64,000 nt of DNA from NCBI RefSeq assembly GCF_017916275.1, contig NZ_JAFMST010000001.1, forward strand, positions 248,001 through 312,000, written 5' to 3'. This DNA comes from Rubellimicrobium arenae. GTDB taxonomy: Bacteria; Pseudomonadota; Alphaproteobacteria; Rhodobacterales; Rhodobacteraceae. Position numbers and translations under genes: made by a program. Shown here piece after piece: positions 16,050-32,580 of the stretch. The notes beneath the pieces were generated by a model. It did no database searches and was not told the origin of the DNA. It saw only the letters and a program-made list of their open reading frames with translations. Within the stretch, counting starts at the first letter, position 1. Each line of letters begins with the position of its first letter.

Positions 16050-16511
16050 TCAGGTCGGATGCGCCTCGGCTTCCTCGGTCGCGCGTTCGTCGGACATGGT
16101 GCCCCCCTCGGGCTCGGCCGAGATGATCCAGTGGGTGCCGAAGCGGTCCCGGACCATGCCGAAGCCCCGCGAGAAGAAGGTGGGGGCAAAGTCCTGGAGG
16201 ACGTCGCCACCCTCGGACAGCCGGTCGAAGGCGGACCGCGCGGCCCCGGGGTCGGGGAAGGTCTGCATGACGGACACGCCCTGCTGGCGGTCGCCGTCCA
16301 TCCCCGGCGGGAAATCCGAGGCCATGAGGAGCCCGCCGGCCGTCCGGATCTGGCCGTGCATGACCCGGTCCGAGCCCGCCCATCCCTCCGGGGCGTTCGG
16401 GCTTTCGGCGTAGCGCATCACGGCGAGGTCGGTGCCGCCCAGGGCTTCGGCGTAGAAGGCCAGCGCCTCGGCGCAGCGGCCCTGGAAATGCAGGTAGGGG
16501 ATTGTGGCCAT
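16050..16511 (-). CDS. PhnB-like VOC family protein (copy 1)
   Basis: A 153-residue vicinal-oxygen-chelate (glyoxalase/bleomycin-resistance fold) protein of the PhnB / 3-demethylubiquinone-methyltransferase-like group. Recognised by MATIPYLHFQGRCAEALAFYAEALGG, MHGQIRTAGGLLMASDFPPG, and FFSRGFGMVRDRFGTHWII. The last ~20 residues are a hydrophilic acidic tail. Its start overlaps the stop of the next VOC gene by one base (TGATG), so the two are translationally coupled and share the LexA box at 16966. Substrate unknown. Confidence 0.85.
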   Translation of the reverse strand: MATIPYLHFQGRCAEALAFYAEALGGTDLAVMRYAESPNAPEGWAGSDRVMHGQIRTAGGLLMASDFPPGMDGDRQQGVSVMQTFPDPGAARSAFDRLSEGGDVLQDFAPTFFSRGFGMVRDRFGTHWIISAEPEGGTMSDERATEEAEAHPT

Positions 16512-16927
16512 CAGGGGACCGGCGCGGGGGCGGGCTGCGATTCGGTGTCGATCATCCAGCGCGTGCCGAACCGGTCCGTGAGGCTGCCGAACCCGGGGGA
16601 CCAGAAGGTGGATTCGTAGGGCATCTCGATCTCGCCCCCTTCGGCCAGGGCGTCGAAGACGCGGCGGCCCTCGGACGTCGTGGGATAGGTGAGCGTGATG
16701 GAGTTCCCGGCCATCGGAACGGCCTTGGAATAGTCCGAGGCGTAAAGCCAACCGTCCCCGATCCGGAGCGCGGCGTGCATGACGCTGTCGGGGTCGCCCC
16801 AGCTTTCGCCGGAGGGCGCGTCGGCGGCCTTCATGATCTGCGGATCGGGCGAGCCGAAGATGCGGGCGTAGGTGCGAAGCGCCTCCTCGGCGGTGCCGTC
16901 GAAGAACAGGTAAGGGATCGGGGCCAT
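16511..16927 (-). CDS. PhnB-like VOC family protein (copy 2)
   Basis: A 138-residue paralogue of copy 1: MAPIPYLFFDGTAEEALRTYARIFG, MHAALRIGDGWLYASDYSKA, and FWSPGFGSLTDRFGTRWMID. It is the first gene of a two-gene transcript. A GGAGGA ribosome-binding site precedes the ATG at 16927, and a perfect LexA-type operator lies 38 bases upstream of the start. Function unknown; members of this group have been linked to resistance and to metal-dependent enzymes, but no role can be read from the sequence. Confidence 0.85.
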   Translation of the reverse strand: MAPIPYLFFDGTAEEALRTYARIFGSPDPQIMKAADAPSGESWGDPDSVMHAALRIGDGWLYASDYSKAVPMAGNSITLTYPTTSEGRRVFDALAEGGEIEMPYESTFWSPGFGSLTDRFGTRWMIDTESQPAPAPVP

Positions 16928-16965: not shown

Positions 16966-16980
16966 GTTCCTATTTCGTTC
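16966..16980 (-). promoter_or_regulatory. LexA (SOS) box upstream of VOC copies 2 and 1
   Basis: GTTC-CTATTTC-GTTC is a perfect match to the alphaproteobacterial LexA operator GTTC-N7-GTTC. It ends 38 bases before the start of the VOC gene at 16927. The Pmp3-like gene diverges from the same region, about 80 bases away. Confidence 0.75.
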
Positions 16981-17059: not shown

Positions 17060-17263
17060 ATGAACTATGTGCTCGCCCTCCTCCTCCCGCCCTTGTCGAT
17101 CCTCCTTGCGGGTCGGCCCATCCTCGCCGTCGTGGTGTTCCTGTTCTGGCTGCCCGCCATCATCTTCTCGGGCGGGCTGGGGCACCCGATCTTCATCCTG
17201 CTGGCCTGGATCATCATCTGGCAGAAGCAGGAGGACCGGCGCGTCCGACGCTTCGACCGCTAG
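17060..17263 (+). CDS. Pmp3/YqaE (UPF0057)-type membrane peptide
   Basis: A 67-residue peptide with two membrane helices: NYVLALLLPPLSILLAGRP (a good match to the family's LLPP-x-x-[VI]-L start) and FILLAWIIIWQKQ, with FWLPAIIFSGGLGHPIF in between. Pmp3-type peptides affect membrane potential and stress tolerance. The ATG at 17060 fits the family start; another ATG three codons upstream (17051) is open. No clear ribosome-binding site is seen. Its stop overlaps the end of the convergent VOC copy 3 by 4 bases. Confidence 0.75.
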   Translation: MNYVLALLLPPLSILLAGRPILAVVVFLFWLPAIIFSGGLGHPIFILLAWIIIWQKQEDRRVRRFDR

Positions 17264-17649
17264 GCCCCGCCACGGGGGGCGGCGATGGCGTCCACCATCC
17301 ATCGCGTCCCCCAGCGGTCCGTGACCCGGCCGAATCCCGGCGACCAGTCGGTCGCGCCATAGGGAGTTTCGACCCGGCCCCCATGGGACAGGGCGTCGAA
17401 GACGCGCTGCCCTTCGCCGGGGTCGGACAGCGTCACGGCCATCGCCGTGCCCGCGCCCGGGTCGGCGCGGCAGGGATCCGGGACGGCATGCCATCCGCGG
17501 GCGGTGTGGACCGAGGCATAGACGAGCGGGTTCGGGAAGGCCGATGCAGGGCAGGGGCGTCCGGCCTGCGGGCGCGGCCGGAAGATCGCGGCGTAGGTGC
17601 GCCGCGCGTCCGCGCAGGAGCCCTCGAACGTGAAGCAGGGAATGGTCAT
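17260..17649 (-). CDS. PhnB-like VOC family protein (copy 3)
   Basis: A 129-residue paralogue of the two VOC genes nearby: MTIPCFTFEGSCADARRTYAAIFR, and DWSPGFGRVTDRWGTRWMVD at the end. The middle is more divergent and lacks the second paralogue's ASDY segment. It has its own LexA-type operator 39 bases upstream, almost the same distance as for copy 2, which argues for a shared promoter design. Function unknown. Confidence 0.8.
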   Translation of the reverse strand: MTIPCFTFEGSCADARRTYAAIFRPRPQAGRPCPASAFPNPLVYASVHTARGWHAVPDPCRADPGAGTAMAVTLSDPGEGQRVFDALSHGGRVETPYGATDWSPGFGRVTDRWGTRWMVDAIAAPRGGA

Positions 17650-17688: not shown

Positions 17689-17703
17689 GTTCCCTTTTTG
17701 TTC
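17689..17703 (-). promoter_or_regulatory. LexA (SOS) box upstream of VOC copy 3
   Basis: GTTC-CCTTTTT-GTTC matches GTTC-N7-GTTC exactly and lies 39 bases before the start at 17649. Confidence 0.75.
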
Positions 17704-19270: not shown

Positions 19271-20728
19271 TCAGGCGGCCATCAGCTTGTCGAGATGTTC
19301 GCGGGCGGCGGTGAGGTCCTGGCGGAACTTCTCGGTCTCGAGCTCCTTGGCGACGGGATCGGGCAGGCGGAGCAGGAAGCTCGGGTGCACCGTCAGGAAG
19401 ACGGGGATGCCGTCAGGGCCGGATTCGACCGTGCCGCGCCGCTTGAGGATGCCATCGCGCGAGCCGGTGAGCGATTCCGCCGCCGAGGCGCCCAGCGCCA
19501 CGAGGAGCTTGGGCCGGACCAGCGACACCTCCTGCTGGAGCCACCACTTGCAGGCCGAGATCTCGCCGCCGTTGGGGCTCTGGTGGATGCGGCGGACGCC
19601 CTTGATCGTGTACTTGAAGTGCTTGACCGCGTTGGTGAGGAAGACCTTGGAGCGGTCGATGCCGGTGTCGCGCAGGATCTGGTCGAAGAGTTGCCCCGCC
19701 GGGCCGACGAAGGGGCGGCCGGCCAGATCCTCCTGATCGCCGGGCTGTTCGCCCACCATCATCAGCGCCGCGTCCAAGGGTCCTTCGCCGGGGACGGCCT
19801 GCGTCGCGTGGGCATGGAGCGGGCAGCGGGTGCAGGCGTCCTCCTCCTCCTTGAGGGCGGAGATCAGGCCGGGTGCGGCGAGGGGAGTTCTGGGCGGCGC
19901 GGGACGGGCGGCGATGGCCTTGGCGTAGAAGGGCGCGCGGGTCGGCGCGGCCTCGGCCATGGCGCGGACGCGGGTTTCGGCATTGGCGAGGAGGTCGGGG
20001 ATGGCGGCGGTCTCGGGCAGGTTCTTCCAGTAGCGCTTGGGCATCTCGGCCAGCATGCGGGCGGTCTTGACCCGCGCCGGATTGAAGATGTTGCGGAAAT
20101 AGGTGAGCCAGAGATCCTCGGCCGCGTCGTCGGGCAGGTCGGGCTTTTCGGCCCCTTCCTCGAAGGTGGTGACGCCATCCTCGAAGCGGGCCACGAGGTC
20201 GGGCGTGGCGATCAGCCAGTCCATGTCGGCGAAGCGACGGGCAAAGAAGGGCGCGGCGGGTTCGAGGGTGAAATGCGCGGGCTCGAACCAGGCGGCGAAG
20301 CGGCGGCGCGGGGCGGTGCGGTCGCCGATCTCGCGGAAGCGGACAAAGGCCTTGAGCTTGTGGAGGTCGCGGTGGACCGCCCGTTCCATCTGGCGGAGCG
20401 CGGTCAGGTCCTTGTCGGCCGGGTCCTGCATGAGGCCCGATTCGGTGCGCAGGCGCCACAGGACGGCGTAAAGGCGGGCGAAGCGTTCGGGGTCCTTGTG
20501 CCAGACCACCTGCGCGGCGAGGTGGACGAAGTTCTCGGGGACGCGGATCGCCCCGACCTTGGGCGCGGGCGGCGGCTCATCCTCGGCCCAAAGGACGGCC
20601 TCGCCGGGGCCGCGGCTCCAGGTGATCGCCTCGGGCGGGATGCGCGCGGACAGGCAGGCGCGGGCGGCCTCGCGCCAAGCCTCGGCGGTGCCGACCTTCG
20701 GGAGCGTCACATGGGGCATGAGGTTCAT
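19271..20728 (-). CDS. UdgX-type uracil-DNA glycosylase fused to a DUF4130 domain
   Basis: A 485-residue fusion. The N-terminal half (about 1-260) matches the DUF4130/TIGR03915 domain that is linked with DNA metabolism. The C-terminal half is a family-4-like uracil-DNA glycosylase with an iron-sulfur cysteine CTRCPLHAHATQ, GEQPGDQEDLAGRPFVGPAGQ, NAVKHFKY, and HPSFLLR. The segment KGVRRIHQSP carries the RRIH loop typical of UdgX, which links covalently to uracil in DNA. The next upstream gene is the radical SAM partner with which this protein nearly always occurs. The first ATG lies inside a LexA box; a second in-frame ATG at 20719 is an alternative start. Confidence 0.88.
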   Translation of the reverse strand: MNLMPHVTLPKVGTAEAWREAARACLSARIPPEAITWSRGPGEAVLWAEDEPPPAPKVGAIRVPENFVHLAAQVVWHKDPERFARLYAVLWRLRTESGLMQDPADKDLTALRQMERAVHRDLHKLKAFVRFREIGDRTAPRRRFAAWFEPAHFTLEPAAPFFARRFADMDWLIATPDLVARFEDGVTTFEEGAEKPDLPDDAAEDLWLTYFRNIFNPARVKTARMLAEMPKRYWKNLPETAAIPDLLANAETRVRAMAEAAPTRAPFYAKAIAARPAPPRTPLAAPGLISALKEEEDACTRCPLHAHATQAVPGEGPLDAALMMVGEQPGDQEDLAGRPFVGPAGQLFDQILRDTGIDRSKVFLTNAVKHFKYTIKGVRRIHQSPNGGEISACKWWLQQEVSLVRPKLLVALGASAAESLTGSRDGILKRRGTVESGPDGIPVFLTVHPSFLLRLPDPVAKELETEKFRQDLTAAREHLDKLMAA

Positions 20729-20737
20729 GTATTGTTC
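20723..20737 (-). promoter_or_regulatory. LexA (SOS) box overlapping the start of the UdgX-type gene
   Basis: On the plus strand GTTC-ATGTATT-GTTC, a perfect GTTC-N7-GTTC; read toward the gene it is GAAC-N7-GAAC. It overlaps the first ATG (20726-20728). No ribosome-binding site is visible in front, so transcription may begin inside the box and use either a leaderless ATG or the ATG at 20719. Confidence 0.75.
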
Positions 20738-20802: not shown

Positions 20803-22038
20803 TCAGAACAGGCTGAGCTGTTCGGGTTCGGGCGCGAAGCGGGCGCGCAGGTCGGCACTGTCGGTGAGCGCCCCGGGGCTCCAGTCCGGCAGGGTGATGA
20901 AGGGCCGCGCCTTCTTGAGCGACGCCCCCATGCGAAGGAGGTCGTCGTAGCGCAGGCCGCGGTGCCGGCGCGTCTGGAGGACGCGGTCCACCGTCCTGGT
21001 GCCGAAGCCGGGGACGCGGAGCAGCATCTCGCGCGGGGCGCGCTGGACGTCGACCGGGAAGTGCTGCCGGTTCCGGAGCGCCCAGGCGAGCTTGGGGTCG
21101 ATCTGGAGGTCGAGGTTGCCGTCCTGCGCGATCTCGTCGGGCGAGAACTCGTAGAAGCGCATGAGCCAGTCGGCCTGGTAGAGCCGATGCTCGCGCAGGA
21201 GGGGCGGCGTCACCAGGGGAAGCTTGGCGGTCGAATCCGGGATGGGTGAGAAGGCCGAGTAATAGACCCGCTTGAGCCCATAGGAGCCGTAAAGGCGCGC
21301 GCTTTGCTGGAGGATCGTCGCGTCGTTCGTGGCGTCGGCGCCCACGATCATCTGGGTGGACTGGCCGGCCGGCGCGAACCTGGGCGCCGCGGTGCCCTGG
21401 AGGGACCGGTCGCTGGCCGCCTCGCGCCCGAGCCGGATGTCGGCCATGTGCTTGCGGATCTCGGCGGGCTTCTTTTCGGGCGCGAAGTCGGCGAGGCTTT
21501 GTTCGGTCGGAAGCTCGATATTGACCGACAGGCGGTCGGCGTAGAGCCCGGCCTCGGCCACCAGCGCGGGGTCGGCGCCGGGGATGGTCTTAAGGTGGAT
21601 GTAGCCGCGGAAGTCATGCTCTTCGCGCAGGGTCCTCACGATGCGGACCATGTCGCGCATCGTGTCGTCGGGCGACCGGATGATGCCCGAGGACAGGAAC
21701 AGCCCCTCGATGTAGTTGCGCCGATAGAATTCGAGGGTGAGGGTCACGACCTCCTCGGGCGTGAACCGGGCGCGCTGCACGTTCGAACTGACGCGGTTCA
21801 CGCAATAGGCGCAGTCGAAGATGCAGAAGTTGGTCATCAGGATCTTGAGCAGCGACACGCAGCGGCCATCCGGCGTGAAGCTATGGCAGATGCCGTTGCC
21901 ATCCGTGGAGCCCAGGCCCTTGCCGTCGCGGGAATCGCGGCGGGAGGTGCCGGACGAGGCACAGGAGGCGTCGTAGCGGGCTGCGTCCGAGAGGATCGCG
22001 AGCTTTTCCTGAAGGTTGGGTGCGGACATGACGTTCAT
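20803..22038 (-). CDS. Putative DNA modification/repair radical SAM protein
   Basis: A 411-residue radical SAM protein of the TIGR03916 type that is found linked to the UDG/DUF4130 fusion. The iron-sulfur motif CIFDCAYC is at about residue 77, after GICHSFTPDGRCVSLLKILMTN. Further motifs are FLSSGIIRSPDDTM, GYIHLKTIPGA, and a C-terminal helix-hairpin-helix-like segment (LLRVPGFGTRTVDRVLQTRR) that suits DNA binding. The reaction is unknown. It lies 74 bases upstream of the glycosylase on the same strand, and both have nearly identical operator/start regions. A second ATG at 22029 is an alternative start. Confidence 0.88.
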   Translation of the reverse strand: MNVMSAPNLQEKLAILSDAARYDASCASSGTSRRDSRDGKGLGSTDGNGICHSFTPDGRCVSLLKILMTNFCIFDCAYCVNRVSSNVQRARFTPEEVVTLTLEFYRRNYIEGLFLSSGIIRSPDDTMRDMVRIVRTLREEHDFRGYIHLKTIPGADPALVAEAGLYADRLSVNIELPTEQSLADFAPEKKPAEIRKHMADIRLGREAASDRSLQGTAAPRFAPAGQSTQMIVGADATNDATILQQSARLYGSYGLKRVYYSAFSPIPDSTAKLPLVTPPLLREHRLYQADWLMRFYEFSPDEIAQDGNLDLQIDPKLAWALRNRQHFPVDVQRAPREMLLRVPGFGTRTVDRVLQTRRHRGLRYDDLLRMGASLKKARPFITLPDWSPGALTDSADLRARFAPEPEQLSLF

Positions 22039-22047
22039 CTATTGTTC
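22033..22047 (-). promoter_or_regulatory. LexA (SOS) box overlapping the start of the radical SAM gene
   Basis: On the plus strand GTTC-ATCTATT-GTTC, a perfect GTTC-N7-GTTC. It overlaps the first ATG (22036-22038), exactly as in the glycosylase gene. Confidence 0.75.
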
Positions 22048-30521: not shown

Positions 30522-31556
30522 TCAGAAGCCCTGCGGATGCGGGGTGCCACCCGCCCGCGCGGGGAGGACCGGCACCTCGACCGCGGGCTGCTCGCCCGTC
30601 AGGCTGCGCAGGAAGGCCACGATGTCATCGACCTCCGGAGCCGAAAGGTCGGCGCCAAGCTGCGCCGTGCCCATGATGTGAACCGCCTCGGGCAGCGACC
30701 AGACCGCGCCCGAATGGAAGTAGGGCGCCGTGAGGGCCACGTTCCGCAGCGGGGCCGCGCGGAAGACGTAGTCGTCGCTGGCCGTCTTGGTGACCGCGAA
30801 CCGGCCGAGGTCGCCCTCGGGCAGGACGTCGCCGCCGGGCCGTTCGACCACACCGAAGGGGAAGTAGTCCTGCCCGCCGAAGTTCACGCCGTTGTGGCAG
30901 CCCGCGCAGCCTTCCTCCATGAAGAGCTGGAGACCATGCTTCTGCACGTCGGTGAGCGCCGCGTCGTCACCCTGGAGCCAGCGATCGAACGGCGCGCCGG
31001 GGGTCACGAGCTTGGCCTCGAAGGCGGCGATGGCGTTGGCGAAGTTGTCGAAGCTGACCGGATCGGCCTCGTCCGGGAAGGCCTGGGCGAAGGCGTCCTT
31101 GTAGGGCTGCATCGAGTTGATGGTCGCCACGACCTGGTCCGGCGTGTTGTTCATCTCCACCGAGGCCTGGACGGGTCCCTTGGCCTGGGCCGCGAGGTCG
31201 GGCGCGCGCCCGTCCCAGAACTGGGCGATGTTGAAGGTCGCGTTGAGCACCGTGGGCGCGTTACGCGGCCCCTTCTGCCAGCCATGCCCGATCGAGGTCT
31301 CGAGCCCGTCCACGCCGCCCATGCCGACGTTGTGGCAGCTTTGGCAGGACACGAGGCCCGAGGACGACATGCGGGGATCGAAGAAGAGTTGCGCGCCGAG
31401 TTCGATGCGCGCGGCCTCGACCCCGTCGGCGGGGGCGGCAGGCGGCGGAACGGCGGCGAAAAGGTCGGAAGCGGCCGTCCGGAGGGCCGAGTCGTCGGCC
31501 AGGGCGGCCGTGCCGCCCAGGAGCAGGGCGGAGGTGAGGAGAGAAAGGCGATGCAT
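30522..31556 (-). CDS. Di-haem cytochrome c peroxidase (MauG/CcpA family)
   Basis: A 344-residue periplasmic enzyme that reduces hydrogen peroxide with electrons from cytochrome c. It has a signal peptide (residues 1-22, ending ALADDS) and two haem-attachment motifs, CQSCHN (about 75) and CAGCHN (about 215). GGVDGLETSIGHGWQKGPRNAPTVLNA and LRNVALTAPYFHSGAVWSL are typical of the family. An FNR-like site lies 61 bases upstream. The ATG at 31556 begins the signal peptide; the frame is open to 31700. Confidence 0.92.
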   Translation of the reverse strand: MHRLSLLTSALLLGGTAALADDSALRTAASDLFAAVPPPAAPADGVEAARIELGAQLFFDPRMSSSGLVSCQSCHNVGMGGVDGLETSIGHGWQKGPRNAPTVLNATFNIAQFWDGRAPDLAAQAKGPVQASVEMNNTPDQVVATINSMQPYKDAFAQAFPDEADPVSFDNFANAIAAFEAKLVTPGAPFDRWLQGDDAALTDVQKHGLQLFMEEGCAGCHNGVNFGGQDYFPFGVVERPGGDVLPEGDLGRFAVTKTASDDYVFRAAPLRNVALTAPYFHSGAVWSLPEAVHIMGTAQLGADLSAPEVDDIVAFLRSLTGEQPAVEVPVLPARAGGTPHPQGF

Positions 31557-31691: not shown

Positions 31692-31768
31692 AGGTCGCAT
31701 TGAAGGTGGATCCGGGTCACGCGCGGCATCTGGCGCAAAGCTGAATCATTCTACTCGCCGTTGTGAAC

Positions 31769-31794
31769 GTTCCTGCTATGTTCTTGTTATGTTC
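31769..31794 (+). promoter_or_regulatory. Two overlapping LexA (SOS) boxes
   Basis: Three GTTC half-sites (31769, 31780, 31791), each separated by exactly 7 bases, form two GTTC-N7-GTTC operators that share the central half-site. They end 28 bases before the start codon at 31823. Confidence 0.8.
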
Positions 31795-31822
31795 CAACCT
31801 GCGAGTCCGATCCCCAGAGCTC

Positions 31823-32332
31823 ATGTCCCAGCATCCGCCCTCCCCGTCGTCCGACGACATCGTGCAGGCCCTCCTGGCTCTCGCCACGCGCGAGCACCTG
31901 GGCGAGGGCGTGACATGGGCGGAGGTGGAGGCGGCGATCAACCAGCTGGTGGACCGCCCCAGGGCCGCCCGGTTGCTGCGCGAGGCCCTGGAAAGGCTCG
32001 ACAATCCCAAGACGGCCCTGAACATCGCCGACTGGCTGGACCAGGCGGCCCGAAGCCGCGAGGCCGATGCGCGCGCCGCCGGGCGCAGCGGCGAGAAGTT
32101 CCTGGCTCCGCTTCAGGGCGTCAGCCTCGGGGCGCTGGCCACCTCGGGCTTCGCCTATGCGGCCGGCACCCTGGACGGGATCGTGTCGGCCTGCGTGGGG
32201 TCGGCGGCGTTCCTGCTGGCCGGAGCCTCGACGACGGGGCGCTGGATGCTGTCGCGCCGGGAGGATCTGGCCCGGCAGGACGCCGAAGCCCTCAGGCGGC
32301 TCGCGGAGATCGCCCAGTCCCGCGAGGCCTGA
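31823..32332 (+). CDS. LexA-controlled membrane protein of unknown function
   Basis: A 169-residue protein that I do not recognise. Residues 1-90 are soluble and helical (DDIVQALLALATREHLGEGVTWAEVEAAINQLVDR), residues ~105-140 form one or two hydrophobic helices (GALATSGFAYAAGTLDGIVSACVGSAAFLLAGAS), and the end is charged (LSRREDLARQDAEALRRLAEIAQ). The ATG at 31823 lies just after the double LexA box; an open GTG-initiated extension from 31763 would read through the operator and is less likely. Damage-inducible expression is inferred from the operator. Confidence 0.7.
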   Translation: MSQHPPSPSSDDIVQALLALATREHLGEGVTWAEVEAAINQLVDRPRAARLLREALERLDNPKTALNIADWLDQAARSREADARAAGRSGEKFLAPLQGVSLGALATSGFAYAAGTLDGIVSACVGSAAFLLAGASTTGRWMLSRREDLARQDAEALRRLAEIAQSREA

Positions 32333-32400
32333 GGCACGCCATTGCATCTCGCTTTCCGGTCCGGGACCGCTATATCATCGGGCCGAAGGAGCGTGCGCCC

Positions 32401-32580
32401 ATGAGCATTGCGGAACTCGGTGTCATTGCGGCTTCGGCCCTTGCGGCCGGTGGTGGCCTGGCCTTCATCTACCATGTCGTCCGGACCGGGGGGCGCGACC
32501 GGCCGAAGGACCCGGAGGGGGTTCGGCGCCTTGTCCGTTCCACCACGTCCGAGAGAACGGGACGCGTCGCGGCCGAGTAG
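32401..32580 (+). CDS. Small single-helix membrane protein
   Basis: A 59-residue ORF starting MSIAELGVIAASALAAGGG, with one hydrophobic helix (about 8-26) and a basic C-terminal half (RTGGRDRPKDPEGVRRLVRS). A GAAGGAG ribosome-binding site is seen upstream. It follows the LexA-controlled gene by 68 bases on the same strand. I do not recognise a family; a real gene is likely but not certain. Confidence 0.5.
   Translation: MSIAELGVIAASALAAGGGLAFIYHVVRTGGRDRPKDPEGVRRLVRSTTSERTGRVAAE

Follow-up and report, generated by a model that had tools for sequence, protein, structure and literature searches.

The window analyzed here, a stretch of 64,000 nucleotides from Rubellimicrobium arenae, contains at positions 31769-31794 the sequence GTTCCTGCTATGTTCTTGTTATGTTC, which matches GTTC-N7-GTTC-N7-GTTC exactly, with the three half-sites following one another at exact 11-base steps. 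The arrangement amounts to two LexA boxes on the plus strand, GTTCCTGCTATGTTC (box 1, 31769-31783) and GTTCTTGTTATGTTC (box 2, 31780-31794, with a spacer that is A/T at six of seven positions), both exact motif matches that share the half-site at 31780-31783. The last half-site lies 28 bases from the start of ORF1 (31823-32332, plus strand, 169 amino acids), which is read in the same direction, and a gap of 68 bases separates the end of ORF1 from the start of ORF2 (32401-32580, plus strand, 59 amino acids). Upstream of ORF2 we observed a ribosome-binding site, AAGGAG (32386-32391, plus strand), which overlaps the stretch AGGAGCGTG, and, by eye, TATATC (32371-32376, plus strand), a possible -10 element of a promoter for ORF2. 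A weak candidate promoter for ORF1, also recognized by eye (TTGTGA and TGTTAT separated by 18 bases, 31761-31790, plus strand), is overlapped by the operator; a consensus scan called no promoter at this position. The first-pass annotation of this DNA had described three GTTC half-sites forming two boxes with a common middle half-site, and an SOS-type operator 28 bases ahead of the gene; the sequence and coordinates confirm the former and support the latter.

According to PMC3323433, GTTC-N7-GTTC is the LexA motif of Alphaproteobacteria. It occurs seven times in the window, whereas 100 shuffles gave 1.04 occurrences on average and never as many as seven. Genome-wide, the motif was found 114 times versus 64 for the backwards control, and any lone box in the source genome is therefore only about half believable. 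The composition of the spacers adds to the picture: the downstream spacer of the triple is A/T at six of seven positions (the upstream one at four of seven), and this 6/7 class accounts for five of 100 listed sites, against approximately 0.25 expected among 64 chance sites. The source genome encodes LexA, and the lexA promoter itself carries GTTC-N7-GTTC. Taken together, the place of the site directly upstream of a start codon that is read the same way, the A/T-rich downstream spacer, and the genome's own LexA make for a convincing putative operator. ORF1 has a box of the right type near its promoter, as members of a LexA regulon do, SOS-type regulation of the locus is well supported, and ORF1 is very probably under LexA control.

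ORF1 has a GC content of 0.735/0.553/0.918 at the three codon positions, a coding-type pattern on the plus strand, and this third-position value (0.92), together with one true homologue, indicates a real gene. Its hydropathy profile contains two hydrophobic segments, at approximately residues 93-111 (weak) and 113-139. The AlphaFold2 model, computed from an input of two sequences, has a mean pLDDT of 78 and consists of three short N-terminal helices followed by long helices at residues 62-113 and 119-166, with the hydrophobic stretch at the junction of the two; we read these as a predicted hairpin with a hydrophobic tip, preceded by a helical head. The model of the homologue, found in the genome designated G187, is weaker (pLDDT 68), and its residues 92-114, corresponding to the membrane region, score under 50. 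Positively charged residues number 12 in residues 1-97 and seven in 139-169, with none in the loop at 112-118, a distribution that suits two membrane helices with both the head and the tail in the cytoplasm. ORF2 also has a hydrophobic segment, in this case a single one. Both proteins are very probably membrane proteins.

ORF1 matched none of the Pfam, NCBIfam, PHROGs, or PADLOC families at the cut-off or with a convincing E-value; the best Pfam matches (DUF4381 / DUF4781) fell below the gathering cut-off both for ORF1 (14.0 of 27.2 bits) and for the G187 homologue (18.1 of 27.9 bits). A Foldseek comparison of the ORF1 model with PDB and viral models returned no match at E 0.001 or better. VIA-align gave a best Z of 9.9, its rows being unrelated helical hairpins, a shape for which, as the tool warns, Z below approximately 13 may mean little. 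Rows with pore-forming toxin folds were dropped as evidence of function, as they fall within chance for helical hairpins. The earlier description of an unrecognized membrane protein of 169 residues with a soluble helical domain is supported by the absence of any family reaching its cut-off, the two hydrophobic segments, and the modeled helical head. The homologue and structure search that had been proposed alongside it recovered one homologue, in G187, and no significant fold match. As for the roles suggested at that stage, sequence cannot separate a division inhibitor, a toxin-like protein, and a stress factor in the case of ORF1.

The distribution of ORF1 is narrow. Among 394 genomes of the family, the only true homologue was that of G187 (36% identity over residues 7-165, E 1.8e-27), whose locus is recorded publicly as an uncultured Rhodobacteraceae bacterium, isolate N326-Z; with the source genome (G000) included, ORF1 is present in two of the 394, and ORF2 lies next to it in both. 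A profile built from the two sequences yielded no further convincing member in these 394 genomes, in 101 relatives of G187, or in 385 genomes of the class, and ORF1 was absent from all seven genus mates searched. Nor was it found in viral contigs, plasmids, or phages. A search of genome contigs gave no homologue with ORF1 alone and a single locus with the two-sequence alignment (L059), which contains L038, the G187 locus again. Matches in 23 further family genomes (E 4e-4 to 0.01) and six further profile matches (E 1.5e-4 to 0.0055) were treated as chance; the weak matches were short and mostly lay within much longer frames or were interrupted by stops, and the best rescored locus of the first set (E 0.00024) is inside a frame of 354 residues.

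In G187, ORF1 and ORF2 are likewise adjacent and in the same order, despite the 36% identity of ORF1, and ORF1 shares 4 bases with the end of the DUF1285 gene that it follows. No exact LexA box was detected in the 3,477 bases around this pair; in a larger record of the locus, one exact box lies on the opposite strand at a distance of almost 5 kb. The box is thus not conserved with the gene, as the only homologous pair has none nearby, and the pair can therefore work without LexA; such conservation would support membership of the LexA regulon but does not strictly define it. Considered jointly, the differences between the loci of the source genome, G187, and the genus mate G004 (discussed below) indicate that the pair is accessory and that LexA control either arose newly here or disappeared from the other lineage.

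The coding signal of ORF2 is weaker when taken alone (GC by codon position 0.717/0.583/0.767), but homologues support it, and its frame, hydrophobic segment, and homologues support the second small membrane ORF of 59 residues that the first-pass annotation had reported. Its counterpart in G187 occupies the same place and is identical at 18 of 48 residues (E 2e-11 in a single comparison), and the leaders of the two genes share the stretch AGGAGCGTG and the TATAT element. Could ORF1 be controlled by LexA while ORF2 is a separate, constitutive gene? The TATAT element, which precedes ORF2 in both genomes, and the occurrence of ORF2 relatives elsewhere without ORF1 speak for such a division, which we nonetheless regard as rather doubtful: the gap between the genes is 68 bases, we found no terminator between them and, by eye, no good -35 element, and G187 keeps the same gene order.

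A two-sequence profile of ORF2 detected a relative in G076, a genome from another family of the class (E 1.7e-9); overall, 36 of 176 genomes matched this profile at E 0.05 or better, all of them weakly except G000 and G076. With the G076 sequence as query, three Roseobacteraceae plasmids proved to carry relatives (E 2e-6 to 1e-3), and a fourth plasmid was added later; the G187 ORF2 gave nothing useful against plasmids. Viral contigs likewise yielded nothing useful for ORF2, and two weak terminase rows from phages were treated as chance. We define the ORF2 family as proteins of 57-62 residues with one N-terminal membrane helix and a GRDRPxDP-type tail, a description that ORF2, with its N-terminal helix and GRDRPKDP tail, fits. 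Six members align over 59 columns with almost no internal gaps; the helix is followed mostly by GRDRPxDP and often by APYE, and in the Roseivivax and Ruegeria relatives the tail motif is altered. In G076, the relative lies behind what we take, by eye, to be a HicB-like ORF, and in L114 (G076:C13:1-413) it runs, also by eye, into an RpoD-like fragment at the contig end. This contig is probably chimeric, and the G076 relative was used solely as an ORF2 sequence.

The ORF2 family is small and is also present on Roseobacteraceae plasmids, usually in the vicinity of toxin-antitoxin genes; the annotated neighbors there include VapC, MbcA/ParS with RES, and a ParD-like gene. The family offers a short, searchable signature for small proteins in this setting. 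In Ruegeria, the ORF2 relative overlaps another frame, and the sole Pfam match of that frame, to exonucleases, falls below the cut-off. A comparison with ORF1 covered the neighbors read at the loci of Sulfitobacter SK025, Roseivivax, and Ruegeria and gave no match; ORF2 relatives thus occur without ORF1.

This company would suit a toxin-antitoxin-like arrangement in which SOS-induced ORF1 depolarizes the membrane and ORF2, with a promoter of its own, keeps ORF1 in check, or the roles are swapped, as would the tight pairing of ORF1 with ORF2 and the TATAT element as a possible promoter of ORF2. We consider such an arrangement unlikely. ORF2 relatives are found without ORF1, the pore-forming toxin fold matches are within chance, and no toxin or antitoxin family matched either ORF1 or ORF2, although the two are linked in two genomes. 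Moreover, two Sulfitobacter plasmids have different toxin-antitoxin neighbors despite 94.8% identity over the adjoining 3,149 bases, and the association of ORF2 relatives with such genes may therefore be simply a plasmid hotspot effect.

These two Sulfitobacter plasmids also carry an identical box, GTTCCTCTATCGTTC (L115:5310-5324 and L118:3142-3156), downstream of the ORF2 relative and ahead of an unannotated frame (L115:5466-5690); in one plasmid only, a VapC gene and a preceding small gene separate the ORF2 relative from the box. Two frames beside plasmid ORF2 relatives (L117:3507-3827 and L116:4177-4608), one of which is annotated as ParD-like, have in common a C-terminal PGP.E.AFFA.R stretch, as judged by eye.

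SOS regulons often include lineage-specific membrane proteins of open role. In Caulobacter, the SOS-induced division inhibitor SidA is a protein of 29 residues that resides in the inner membrane and interacts with FtsW, as stated in PMC4211646. A comparable checkpoint at our locus would have ORF1 or ORF2 bind the late divisome in the membrane and delay septation until repair is complete. The likeness would lie in a small inner-membrane protein behind LexA control; ORF1, with 169 residues, a helical head, and a hairpin, is far larger than SidA, and the pair is accessory (two of 394 family genomes) and also occurs without a nearby box. Overall, we give this checkpoint a low probability.

A second Caulobacter protein, HigX, is described in PMC13384398 as an SOS-induced, membrane-associated factor linked to toxin-antitoxin genes. 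ORF1 would resemble it as an alphaproteobacterial SOS gene acting at the membrane, but HigX is a transcription factor with wide conservation among alphaproteobacteria, whereas ORF1 is rare and has no recognized DNA-binding domain. SidA and HigX show that SOS genes with membrane products exist in the class. SLATT and other two-helix effectors share with the predicted ORF1 two membrane helices continued by cytoplasmic helices, and a SLATT-domain protein appeared at rank 47 in the viral fold search with ORF1 (E 0.82, not significant); in contrast to these effectors, ORF1 has no Pfam match above cut-off, and no sensor partner was seen. In Dinoroseobacter, in-silico LexA sites have been placed at lexA, recA, flagellar, and pilus genes, according to PMC6473078. 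Literature searches brought up nothing that, judged by its title or the opening of its abstract, deals with the ORF1-ORF2 pair.

The reading that we favor, and hold as a whole to be moderately probable, is that of an accessory pair of inner-membrane proteins placed under LexA control in this lineage and serving as a brake on growth or division. From what the sequence supports, namely the boxes, LexA, the genes, the hydrophobic segments, and the position of ORF1 and ORF2 side by side in two genomes, we infer LexA binding, induction, co-transcription, topology, and action as follows. In an undamaged cell, a LexA dimer on either of the overlapping boxes would cover the promoter and silence ORF1, and ORF2 would be silenced alongside it, probably by dependence on read-through. 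DNA damage would trigger, through RecA, the cleavage of LexA and its release. The ORF1 hairpin would then insert in the inner membrane with its head and stalk in the cytoplasm, bitopic ORF2 would join it with the GRDRP tail inside, and the pair would act on the envelope as a temporary brake. This mode of action is derived from the membrane location, the patchy distribution, and the company of the ORF2 relatives, and we put forward the braking function itself only tentatively. The patchy distribution (two of 394) and the ORF2 relatives beside plasmid toxin-antitoxin genes would suit an accessory effector. A bolder version, which we think improbable, is an undescribed mobile membrane effector pair in which ORF2, with its kin on Rhodobacterales plasmids, serves as a small adaptor or as an immunity protein and ORF1 is a hairpin effector captured in this lineage by LexA, turning damage into growth arrest at the membrane; if so, DNA damage such as that caused by phage attack would trigger the arrest. 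What is new at this locus is the two proteins, which belong to rare, undescribed families, whereas the operator is ordinary: a common LexA switch is here coupled to two protein families without names. The same pair with and without a LexA box also provides a natural comparison of how an accessory pair is controlled.

That the operator is ordinary is evident from its occurrence in relatives. At least one exact triple GTTC was found in 187 of the 394 family genomes (a raw count, uncorrected for control matches), and within the genus in five of eight genomes, with six matches versus two control matches. Eight genes beside triples, chosen for readability rather than at random, were profiled, and seven of these were assigned to a family, with the triple 19-67 bases from the matched start: LexA (two), photolyase (one), impB/mucB/samB-type polymerases (IMS-domain, Y-family; three), and RecA (one). 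The 28 bases at our locus fall within this range. The eighth gene, encoding a protein of 109 residues, matched no family. Of ten triple-site loci considered, L087, L089, L090, and L093 were left without a gene assignment; L086 gave no family match, and the identification of lexA at L084 was purely visual. In G187, too, the triple half-site is present at lexA. The overlapping triple operator is thus an ordinary design in these relatives, and the "tight, possibly late" induction once proposed for it is not borne out, as the same triple precedes lexA, recA, photolyase, and Y-family polymerase genes with no sign of lateness. Because the middle half-site is common to both boxes, two dimers should exclude each other, and the overlap would therefore let a single dimer bind in either of two registers and would not act as a double lock. 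Our locus shares with other alphaproteobacterial LexA operators the exact motif, the promoter position, and the triple, but differs in that it precedes a gene which is not recognized as belonging to repair and which relatives have not retained.

One family genome, G030, stands apart: it contains 46 exact triples, of which 26 are forward and 20 reverse, against zero control matches, and this may reflect a repeated element.

Two further explanations concern the boxes themselves. The whole source genome contains one exact triple GTTC and also one control triple, and the triple, taken by itself, could thus have arisen by chance; a chance match is nevertheless very improbable, given its location 28 bases ahead of a coding start in the same direction, the A/T-rich downstream spacer, and a LexA gene with its own box in the genome. 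Weakest of all is the idea that the boxes control a divergently oriented gene for a cytochrome c peroxidase (30522-31556, minus strand), which starts 213 bases away; we regard this as highly improbable, as the boxes stand at promoter distance from ORF1 and the 14 kb around the orthologue in G004, which is 83% identical, contain no exact box. G004 is the one genus mate with a close orthologue of this neighboring gene; it resembles the window no further than the peroxidase gene, and an empty-site comparison with genus mates failed for this reason. The first-pass annotation had raised the case of relatives that lack ORF1 and keep the box for another gene, and here the outcome is mixed: ORF1 is indeed missing (seven of seven genus mates), but G004 keeps no box for another gene at this place.

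Other LexA boxes in the window accompany different genes. Those at 20723-20737 and 22033-22047 lie at the starts of a gene for a DUF4130-UDG protein and a radical SAM gene, respectively, which are probably true SOS genes; their presence in the window speaks for the reading that we favor. The boxes at 16966-16980 and 17689-17703 each precede, by approximately 40 bases, a small minus-strand gene (16511-16927 and 17260-17649). The first of these genes matches the 3-dmu-9_3-mt and glyoxalase families; the second matched no family at E 0.001 and resembles the first by eye, as does a third frame at 16050-16751.
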